Assembly: GCA_903875465.1 (NCBI GenBank)
Contig: CAIQWB010000077.1
Location: forward strand, 1-59,157
Length of the DNA stretch: 59,157 bases
Origin: an uncultured Verrucomicrobia subdivision 3 bacterium
GTDB lineage: Bacteria > Verrucomicrobiota > Verrucomicrobiia > Limisphaerales > UBA11358
Direction: 5' to 3'
The position numbers and the translations under genes were made by a program. Numbering within the stretch: position 1 is the first letter of the stretch; every line of letters starts with the position of its first letter. The notes under the pieces are model-generated. The model made no database searches, was not told the DNA's origin, and saw only the letters and a list, made by a program, of their open reading frames with translations. Below, piece after piece: positions 16,864 to 59,157 of this stretch.

Positions 16864-17087
16864 CCCGAACTCCGAAATTAAAATGGCTGGGATGCGTCAA
16901 GATATTGGAGCAGAAACGCTTTGGCAAAATCGCCGCATACCCGCAGCGGTCTGGTAAGACTGCCTCGGCGCACAGCGCGCATCCTTAAATGGGCAACTGA
17001 TTGGCAGCGGCTTGGGAAGCCAATTTTCCAAACCGTTTATGCCCAATAGATGGATGCAGACCGGGCGTCTTAATTTCGGAGTTCGGG
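16864..17087. mobile_element. CCCGAAC element, copy 1 (224 bp)
   Basis: A non-coding element with terminal inverted repeats CCCGAACTCCGAAATTAA on both ends (18 identical bases). The duplication TTTAA flanks it at 16859-16863 and 17088-17092. Beyond the perfect ends, the left and right ~75 bp remain complementary at roughly two of three positions, so the whole unit could fold as a long hairpin. Compared with copies 2 and 4 the internal reading frame is broken, which argues against a protein product. It lies between two convergent genes. Confidence 0.85.
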
Positions 17088-27680: not shown

Positions 27681-28151
27681 ATGCTCCAAACCAATAAAAA
27701 ATCCAAGGCTCAGAAAACCCGTGCCACCTTCGCCATCGTGGCCTCCCGCTACAATGCGAAATACGTGGATGCCATGCTGCGCGCCGCCCAGGCCGAGTTA
27801 AAACGCGCCGGGGCCAAAGTGCGCACCGTGCGGGTGCCGGGCGCCTATGAGATTCCCGTGGTGGCCGCCCGCCTGGCCCGCGCCAGCACGCCTCGCCTCG
27901 GCGGCATCATTTGTCTCGGCGTCATCCTGCGCGGAGCCACCACCCATGCCCAGCACATCGGCGAAGCCGTGAGCAATGCCCTGGCGCACATTCAAGTGCA
28001 GCACGAAGTCCCGGTCATTCACGAAGTGCTGTTATTGGAGAATGCCGACCAGGCCCGCGAACGCTGCCTGGATCCCCGGCACAATCGCGGCCTCGAAGCC
28101 GCCCAAACCGCCCTGGAGATGGCGCGGGTCATGGAATCCTTGCGGGACTGA
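27681..28151 (+). CDS. ribH: 6,7-dimethyl-8-ribityllumazine synthase
   Basis: A 156-residue lumazine synthase that joins 3,4-dihydroxybutanone phosphate to the ribityl pyrimidine, the step before riboflavin. Active-site segments are SRYNAKYVDAML, PGAYEIPVVAARLA, the phosphate loop/catalytic His in GATTHAQHIGEAVS, and the HNRGLEAAQTALEM end. It is not next to nusB, where ribH often lies: nusB, ribD and ribE form another operon 8-12 kb away. Confidence 0.93.
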   Translation: MLQTNKKSKAQKTRATFAIVASRYNAKYVDAMLRAAQAELKRAGAKVRTVRVPGAYEIPVVAARLARASTPRLGGIICLGVILRGATTHAQHIGEAVSNALAHIQVQHEVPVIHEVLLLENADQARERCLDPRHNRGLEAAQTALEMARVMESLRD

Positions 28152-28174: not shown

Positions 28175-28623
28175 GTGCCCTATCCGTCCATCGCCTTCAT
28201 CATCGTAATCGCGGTGTTGTTTTACCGCGCGGCGGAGCTGGAGGACGCACCGGGTGTGTTATGGCCGGTCTTGTCCGTGGCGATTTCCCTCGTGACTTTA
28301 TCCCGAACTCCGAAATTAAAATGGCCGGGATGCGGCAAGATGTTGGAGCAGAAACCCTTTGGAAAAATCGCCGACATACCCGCAGTGGTCGGGTGAGACT
28401 GCCTCTGCGCGCAGCGCGCATCCTTAAATGGGCAACTGATTGGCAGTGGCTTGGGAAGCCACTTTTCCAAAGCGTTTATGCCCAGGAGATCGATGCCGAC
28501 CGGCTGTTATAATTTCGGAGTTCGGGTTTATTTTACCTTGGCGGAGGCTGGCTGTTTGCGTGCCTGGGGCAGGCCGGGCTTTTCCTGGGCATTGCCGGGT
28601 TCCGTGCCTTGCGCAAACCCTGA
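28175..28623 (+). pseudogene. Small membrane-protein gene split by a CCCGAAC element
   Basis: The first half (28175-28301) reads VPYPSIAFIIVIAVLFYRAA, then LSVAISLVTL, from a GTG start. The second half (28531-28623) reads FYLGGGWLFACLGQAGLFLG, then IAGFRALRKP and a stop. Between them is the 225-bp copy 2 plus one five-base duplication. Deleting 230 bp joins the two halves in frame as ...VTLFYLGGG..., giving a 72-residue protein with two or three helices. The element has no in-frame path, so the gene is inactive here. No family recognised. Confidence 0.8.
28302..28526. mobile_element. CCCGAAC element, copy 2 (225 bp), inside a gene
   Basis: Terminal repeats CCCGAACTCCGAAATTA match at both ends (17 bases). 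The target duplication is TTTAT at 28297-28301 and 28527-28531. Because the host gene's frame is exactly restored by removing the element and one duplication, these boundaries are fixed to the base. The element has the same internal layout as copies 1 and 4, and a 63-codon frame at 28321-28512 that is shared only with copy 4. Confidence 0.92.
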
Positions 28624-28732
28624 TGGCTTGCCGCCGGGCGGTTGAAGTTCCCGCCAATCTGGTGCCGGATTCCATTTATCCACCGATTTTGTAATGGTTC
28701 CCCGCCCATTCCGGGTTATGCTGCTCATTGTT

Positions 28733-29362
28733 ATGAAAATTGTCGCGATTATTTTTGGGGCGGTGCTGGGGTTGGTACTGTTGGTGGTCGTGCTGGGAGC
28801 CGGCAGCTACAACCGCCTCGTGCGGCTCTCCCAAGGCGTGGACAGCCAGTGGGCCCAGGTGCAAAATGTGTATCAACGCCGGGCGGACCTCGTCCCCAAT
28901 CTGGTCGCCACGGTTTCCGGCGCGGCGAATTTCGAGAAATCCACCCTCACCGAAATCACCACGGCCCGCGCCTCGGTCGGGCAGGTGAAGCTCGACCCCA
29001 ATTCCGCGCCCAGCGATCCCGCCAAACTCGCCGCCTTTGAAACCGCCCAGGGCCAGCTCTCCTCGGCCCTGTCCCGTTTGCTGGTCGTGGTCGAAAAATA
29101 TCCAGACTTGAAAGCCACCGGGAATTTTCGCGATTTGCAGGCGCAATTGGAAGGCACCGAAAACCGCATCAGCGTGGAACGCCGTGACTTCAACACCGCC
29201 GTGCAGGATTATAACACGGCGATCAAATCATTTCCCGCCGTGCTCTATGCCGGGGGGTTTGGCTTCAGTCCCAAGCCTTATTTTACCGCCACGGCCGGGT
29301 CTGAGACCCCGCCCAAGGTTCAATTCGACTTCAACCAAACCGCACCCGCCGCCAAACCCTGA
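28733..29362 (+). CDS. lemA: LemA-family protein
   Basis: A 209-residue protein with one N-terminal membrane helix (about 4-24), then the LemA helical-bundle domain: YNRLVRLSQGVDSQWAQVQN, YQRRADLVPNLVATV, EKYPDLKATGNFRDLQAQLE, GTENRISVERRDFN. LemA proteins are widespread and of unclear function. ATG at 28733 is chosen; the frame is open to 28694 with other starts. The next two genes carry TPM domains and follow in the same direction with three- to four-base gaps, a familiar lemA-TPM arrangement. Confidence 0.9.
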   Translation: MKIVAIIFGAVLGLVLLVVVLGAGSYNRLVRLSQGVDSQWAQVQNVYQRRADLVPNLVATVSGAANFEKSTLTEITTARASVGQVKLDPNSAPSDPAKLAAFETAQGQLSSALSRLLVVVEKYPDLKATGNFRDLQAQLEGTENRISVERRDFNTAVQDYNTAIKSFPAVLYAGGFGFSPKPYFTATAGSETPPKVQFDFNQTAPAAKP

Positions 29363-45539: not shown

Positions 45540-45700
45540 CCCGAACTCCGAAATGAAAATGGCTGGGATGCGTCCAGATATTGGAGCAGCAGCGCTTTGG
45601 AAAAATCGCCGCATACCTGCAGCGGTCTGGCAGGATTTTTCCAAACCGTTTATGCCCAATAGATGGATGCCGGCCGGTCGTTTTCATTTCGGAGTTCGGG
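45540..45700. mobile_element. CCCGAAC element, copy 3 (161 bp, internally deleted)
   Basis: Terminal repeats of 20 identical bases (CCCGAACTCCGAAATGAAAA). Both ends carry ATG where other copies have ATT, so the two arms changed together. TTTAA flanks it at 45535-45539 and 45701-45705. About 64 bp of the middle are missing relative to copy 1, around the step from GGTCTGGCA to GGATTTTTCC. It lies between the GH31 stop and the GH3 start, splitting what was a close (~15 bp) gene pair. Confidence 0.9.
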
Positions 45701-55479: not shown

Positions 55480-55704
55480 CCCGAACTCCGAAAGTAAAAT
55501 GGCTGGGATGTGTCCAGCTGTTGGAGCCGAAACCCTTTGGAAAAATCGCCGGCCTACCCGCAGTGGTCTGGTGAGACTGCCGCTGCGCGCAGCGCACACC
55601 CTTAAATGGGCAACTGCTTGGCAGCGGCTTGGGAAGCCAATGTTCCCAAGCATTTATGCCCAAGCGATGGCTGCCGACCGGCCGTTTTAATTTCGGAGTT
55701 CGGG
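55480..55704. mobile_element. CCCGAAC element, copy 4 (225 bp)
   Basis: Flanked by TTTAA (55475-55479) and TTGAA (55705-55709), one base different, which suggests an older insertion. The left end has CCGAAAGTAAAA where the right arm has AAATTAAAA. It lies between two convergent genes (beta-helix protein and miaA). It shares a 63-codon frame (55499-55690) with copy 2, but most codon differences between them change the residue, so no protein is being conserved. Confidence 0.88.
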
Positions 55705-58953: not shown

Positions 58954-58983
58954 CCCGAACTCCGATATTAAAATGGCTGGGAG
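58954..58983. mobile_element. CCCGAAC element, copy 5 (left-end fragment)
   Basis: About 30 bases (CCCGAACTCCGATATTAAAA and a little more) match the left end of the other copies, preceded by TTTAA at 58949-58953. After AATGGCTGGGA the sequence departs. No right end or second duplication follows, so it is a truncated copy. Confidence 0.7.
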
Positions 58984-59118
58984 GTTCCTCGCTGTTTTCG
59001 GTGGCATGTGAATCGAGCTGACCATTTGAGCGGTTGGGGAATTGCTGCTTCCATCCCAACGGGATTGCGCCCGCTCGCCCAAGGTTGCGCGGCACGAGCT
59101 ACCTTGGGTATTCCCCCC

Positions 59119-59157
59119 AACGACCGCCAACCCCAACGGGGTTGTGCCCGTTGGCCG
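59119..59157. repeat. 39-bp terminal repeat, identical to 1-39
   Basis: The last 39 bases equal the first 39, in the same orientation, and carry the REP-like palindrome CAACCCC-AAC-GGGGTTG at 59128-59144. Either the contig ends in two copies of a dispersed repeat, or the sequence is circularly closed. The housekeeping gene content favours the first. Confidence 0.8.

Follow-up and report, generated by a model that had tools for sequence, protein, structure and literature searches.

A 225-bp MITE splits a 72-codon gene in an uncultured Verrucomicrobial genome and shares its ends with IS1380-family elements

Passages of PMC10969869 describe Correia, ERIC, MITEAba12 and other bacterial miniature inverted-repeat transposable elements (MITEs) as short, with terminal inverted repeats and a stem-loop, as present in up to hundreds of copies and as occasionally disrupting genes. 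In the same passages the Chunjie MITE of Geobacter uraniireducens has a full length of 235 bp, while other copies of 178-235 bp retain both kinds of repeat, inverted and direct; one such copy is located in an operon, and for the remaining 37 an intergenic position is given (the original Chunjie paper is cited in a section of PMC4133298). Chunjie resides in a different phylum, and Correia, ERIC and MITEAba12 in other hosts, than the MITE reported here, and all of these are likened to it by description only. A likeness also exists to IS1380-family insertion sequences (NF033539, PF13701), which have the outer 12-16 end bases in common with our MITE and in one genome (G087) show a TTAAA duplication. 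These, however, are about 1.5 kb long, contain a transposase gene and differ from the MITE in their interior.

Here we analyze a stretch of 59,157 nt (the window) from an uncultured Verrucomicrobia subdivision 3 bacterium of the order Limisphaerales, in which a MITE interrupts a small gene. The disruption of bacterial genes by MITEs is already known (see e.g. the treatment in parts of PMC10969869), and the insertion event as such is ordinary, well-documented biology. The locus is a clean case of it, exact to the base, in an uncultured Verrucomicrobial genus. What is added here is the MITE family, its sizes and its probable transposase: a family of about 110 copies tied to IS1380 elements of the same order provides a concrete transposase candidate. 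For this link we make no claim of a first report.

Structure of the insertion and age of the split gene

The element measures exactly 225 bp and splits a gene of 72 codons (Table 1). Its terminal inverted repeats are 27 nt long and 89% complementary, the outer 17 nt being identical, and TTTAT is found on either side of them. Because the adjoining bases differ, the repeat can be neither slid nor extended, and the inverted repeats admit no other placement; the ends are therefore fixed to the base, as the original prediction had it. If the element and one TTTAT are removed in silico, the two gene parts combine to 219 nt (72 codons and a stop), and the protein reads ...ISLVTL/FYLGGG... across the junction. 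The predicted spacing of the halves (exactly 225 bp plus a TTTAT duplication) and the predicted rejoining of the frame to 72 residues at VTL/FYLGGG upon removal of 230 bp are thus both borne out. With the element in place, the first 42 codons are followed by 31 codons of element sequence and a stop, which results in a fused frame of 73 residues as compared to 72 before the insertion.

Table 1. Features of the window around the split gene and further MITE copies.
Feature	Position	Strand	Remarks
ribH, 6,7-dimethyl-8-ribityllumazine synthase, upstream neighbour	27681..28151	+	PF00885, E 7.1e-40; order kept in four relatives
Split gene, 5' part (codons 1-42 and one base)	28175..28301	+	homologues, joined frame
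Target-site duplication TTTAT, left copy	28297..28301	.	
MITE, no transposase gene	28302..28526	.	225 bp; 5.3% from consensus of 35 copies
Left terminal inverted repeat, CCCGAACTCCGAAATT...	28302..28328	.	same ends in IS1380-family elements
Right terminal inverted repeat	28500..28526	.	inverted-repeat comparison
Target-site duplication TTTAT, right copy	28527..28531	.	
Split gene, 3' part with stop codon	28532..28623	+	homologues, joined frame
LemA-family protein, downstream neighbour	28694..29362	+	PF04011
Second MITE copy, 224 bp	16864..17087	.	TTTAA on both sides
161-bp MITE version	45540..45700	.	TTTAA on both sides
Further 225-bp copy	55480..55704	.	flanks TTTAA / TTGAA, one base different

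The joined 72-residue protein was sought in 40 genomes (the own genome and 39 others) at a threshold of E 0.01 or better. In the own genome only the two halves of the split gene were recovered. Homologues were found in five of the 39 other genomes, namely G012 (69% identity), G004 (51%), G016 (47%), G010 (37%) and G030 (40% over part of the protein); the remaining 34 gave no match at this threshold, so that the gene is patchy. As in the window, ribH lies directly upstream of the homologue in G012, G004, G016 and G010 (where the contig carries only the end of ribH), and no ribH was found in the locus of the G030 homologue. The homologues in G012, G004 and G016 are single uninterrupted frames that span the junction unbroken (residues 1-71, 1-72 and 1-71, respectively). 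The closest one, in G012, comprises 72 residues if the last codon is counted, and at the DNA level the target site is uninterrupted there. These uninterrupted homologues behind ribH in three genomes support the original prediction that the gene existed first and that the element arrived later.

As would be expected for a coding gene, third codon positions account for 21 of the 40 differences from G012 in the 5' part and for 13 of the 22 in the 3' part; the excess is weaker against G004 (24/52 and 25/47) and G016 (21/47 and 16/37). No Pfam or NCBIfam family matched the 72-residue protein, the hydrophobic stretches of which suggest a small membrane protein.

According to the original prediction, intact copies of the gene should occur in relatives, and a relative with a frame not joining at TTTAT would speak against the insertion. 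G012, G004 and G016 carry the gene unbroken. The alignment to the homologue in G010 is spread over two frames (residues 1-60 in one and 42-72 in the other), so that this copy is split near the same point, which touches the latter case, yet such a reading does not explain the other three homologues. The split itself (L055, about position 1560) is a frame break of one base near residue 42, not far from the position of the MITE in the window; it may be real, a coincidence or a sequencing error.

The MITE family

The 225-bp element is a MITE. MITEs are below about 500 bp and have no transposase gene, and 225 bp is too short for one; the open frames across the element are either short or enter it from the flanking DNA. 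Terminal inverted repeats, a target-site duplication and many copies are all present. End counts indicate some 110 copies in the own genome; contigs break within repeats, and therefore such counts may be too low and the assembly could lack a multi-copy transposon. The end motif CCCGAANNCCGAAATTAAAA with at most one mismatch was found 109 times in forward and 107 times in reverse orientation in the own genome (reversed control 0 and 0), and a shorter end motif 117 and 115 times on the two strands against 5 and 5 for the control. Forty of 162 first-look candidates were scored; each of the 40 covers at least 217 of the 235 query bases, with identities of 89-93% (the element itself excepted). Elsewhere in the order, the end motif CCCGAANNCCGAAATTAAAA occurs in 13 of 319 genomes, with 1 to 4 matches.

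Fifty end pairs were examined, 32 of which span 224-225 bp and 8 of which span 161-163 bp. Exact 5-bp repeats flank 31 of the 50, and another 11 differ at one base; 19 pairs have no exact 5-bp repeat. Registers of 4 bp and 6 bp fit one pair each. Three of the pairs (316, 422 and 491 bp) each have one end with 3 mismatches and probably arose by chance; if they are set aside, 31 of 47 are exact. All 31 exact repeats fit NTNAN, and 19 of them read TTAAA or TTTAA. Given this preferred target, chance matches between flanks are commoner than 1 in 1024, and the flanks of different copies indeed match in 389 of 2450 pairings (16%). The insertion structure at the split gene is not a chance arrangement, because a genome-wide family shows the same ends and 5-bp duplications and because the homologues of relatives align unbroken across the junction.

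Among 35 copies of the 225-bp kind, the mean difference is 7.9% (1.8-15.7%). The copy in the split gene lies 5.3% from their consensus (range 2.7-11.6%) and is therefore part of the general burst rather than a notably young insertion. One copy each of the 225-bp and 161-bp kinds was folded, and both form one long hairpin (z -8.7 for the element with DNA parameters). Most copies are probably intergenic, because frames at the emptied sites are rarer than at control points: a frame of at least 150 codons was seen for 7 of 32 copies against 65% of 320 control points, and at 70 codons for 18 of 32 against 83%, these frames being mechanical and several of them looking like no gene.

Related elements of 162-163 bp with similar ends were seen in G008, G228, G231 and G239, one or two in each. 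The centre of the element (window 28375-28397, consensus CATACCCGCAGTGGTCTGGTGAG) is largely kept in the low-copy relatives of G008 and G239. The end pattern of the G008 type, which is not that of the window, retrieved two records from genome_contigs, one from Flavobacterium ustbae and one that is apparently the own contig of G008. The exact window-type end had no match in IMG/VR, the element had none among plasmids and phages, and Rfam at gathering threshold reported one tRNA only for the window. A much shortened copy is present in L094 (159-220), where a 62-bp pair of MITE ends has CTTAA on both sides.

The putative transposase and alternative explanations

An autonomous partner with the same ends is common for MITEs but not required, and none was found in the own genome: neither PF13701 nor a search with the G087 protein revealed an IS1380 transposase in the own assembly. 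Likewise, no transposase was recognised between the ends in 24 stretches with single unpaired end motifs (judged by eye and by end pairing). PF13701, absent from the own genome, became the best candidate after the search was extended to the order, where it matches in 142 of 313 genomes. Since the own genome yielded no such transposase, the partner is inferred from relatives.

The reference element, G087:C57:131-1650, is 1520 bp long and codes for an IS1380 transposase (NF033539, 184.7 bits at a cut-off of 180; PF13701 also matched). Its ends are CCCGAACTCCGA.../CCTGAACTCCGAAGTT with TTAAA on both sides; the transposase frame of this copy is broken. Intact IS1380 transposases of about 472 residues are encoded in G245 and G218. 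With the G087 protein as query, 59 matches were obtained in 39 of the 313 genomes. Loci were fetched for 30 of the 59 matches, 11 at 61-100% and 19 at 29-41% identity. Among these 30, eight of the 11 close loci show an end with at most 2 mismatches to CCCGAACTCCGAAATT, the first 16 bases of the MITE (in L202 all 16 bases are identical), whereas none of the 19 distant loci has such an end within 3 mismatches. The three other close loci have no good end (4 mismatches in L221, none within 4 in L205 and L224). Three of the 11 close loci belong to genomes of the window's genus (G242, G010 and G228). MITE-type ends thus go with one IS1380 group, defined by percent identity, that is present in the window's genus. 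Both flanks of an IS copy are exact only in G087; those of L202 (TTTAA / TTCAA) differ at one base, and L200 and L201 each lack one flank because the contig ends there. Further inward than about 16 bases, MITE and IS elements are unlike: p < 0.05 was reached in 2 of 24 comparisons, both times at the same IS end. A likeness confined to the ends corresponds to a type II MITE in the terms used in parts of PMC10969869. Other IS1380-family elements of the order (L164, L179 and L186) carry CCCGAATATTTC or CCCGGATATTTC at their ends, adjacent to TTAA or CTAG.

Judging from these ends, an IS1380-family transposase acting in trans most likely mobilised the MITE. This enzyme would recognise the MITE ends (about 16 bp), and the element would be joined into a staggered 5-bp cut at TTTAT inside the existing 72-codon gene. 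Gap repair would then duplicate TTTAT. Of the gene, the first 42 codons are left, extended by 31 codons from the element, presumably with loss of its function. The structure, the duplication, the family of copies, the prior presence of the gene and the ends held in common with IS1380-family elements of the order are observed; the transposition itself, the transposase responsible and the loss of gene function are inferred. We have high confidence in this account as a whole, i.e. a MITE, an IS1380 transposase acting in trans and an insertion at TTTAT in an existing gene.

The strongest alternative, which we nevertheless regard as unlikely, assigns the MITE to another transposase family (e.g. of the IS4/IS5 type) and explains the likeness to IS1380 ends by convergence. 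This likeness is indeed confined to about 16 bases, and PF01609 transposases are present in the own genome (3 matches). However, the end sequence tracks the close IS1380 group and not the distant ones, and at up to 2 mismatches the end motif is absent from all 32 PF01609 loci scanned (the own 3 and 29 from the genus, taken from more than 150 listed matches); L130, L132 and L147 each have one unpaired 3-mismatch match. Also, L130, an IS5-type element in the own genome, has different ends, GAGACTGTTTTAAAATT, with TTA on both sides. PF01609 transposases were accordingly rejected as the partner on the basis of these 32 loci.

Still less probable, in our view, is a scenario in which the split gene remains useful, its new C-terminus or an RNA hairpin between ribH and the LemA gene being the reason why the arrangement was kept. 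The frame does stay open for 31 codons into the element, and the element does fold as one long hairpin. A single insertion, however, cannot show conservation, the added tail consists of element sequence, a search for promoter-like sites yielded none, and terminator-like sites number 2 against 1.2 expected.

The original prediction further held that precise excision restores the gene; the frame is restored in silico, while the excision itself exists on paper only. The eukaryotic piggyBac excises precisely, and by analogy an IS1380 transposase might cut the MITE out precisely at its NTNAN site; some of the cells would then carry an intact gene and the element would act as a genetic switch, a scenario to which we attach very little probability. 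IS1380 transposases figure as the prokaryotic outgroup for piggyBac in a portion of PMC10813416. Least credible of all is an assembly artefact, i.e. a repeat copy misplaced between two unrelated stretches: the assembly does break inside MITE repeats (16 of 18 contig starts chosen for a nearby end motif begin within one), but the sequences to the left and right of the element belong to a single gene, in the correct order and frame, and each is bordered by the same TTTAT, which is not expected from a wrong join. Thus, the insertion of a MITE mobilised by an IS1380-family transposase remains our preferred explanation.

Neighbouring repeats

The right edge of the window, at 59157, falls inside a repeat, as do the chosen contig starts (L032-L049) in 16 of 18 cases. 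A second repeat family with ends GGTTCCTCGCTGTTTTCGGTGG has 36 forward and 24 reverse matches in the genome (reversed control 0). Members of this family (window 58983-59157; L031, L088 and L093) are in several cases nested in the MITE, more than once at an identical position; an apparent 8-bp duplication, TCCCAGCC, is seen in L031 and L088. The nested repeats may mark a hot spot or, alternatively, composites moving together as a single unit. The IS5-type insertion sequence in L130 (G000:C96, 1440-2402; PF01609, PF13340) has an end motif that also occurs inside the MITE copies in L041 and L043.
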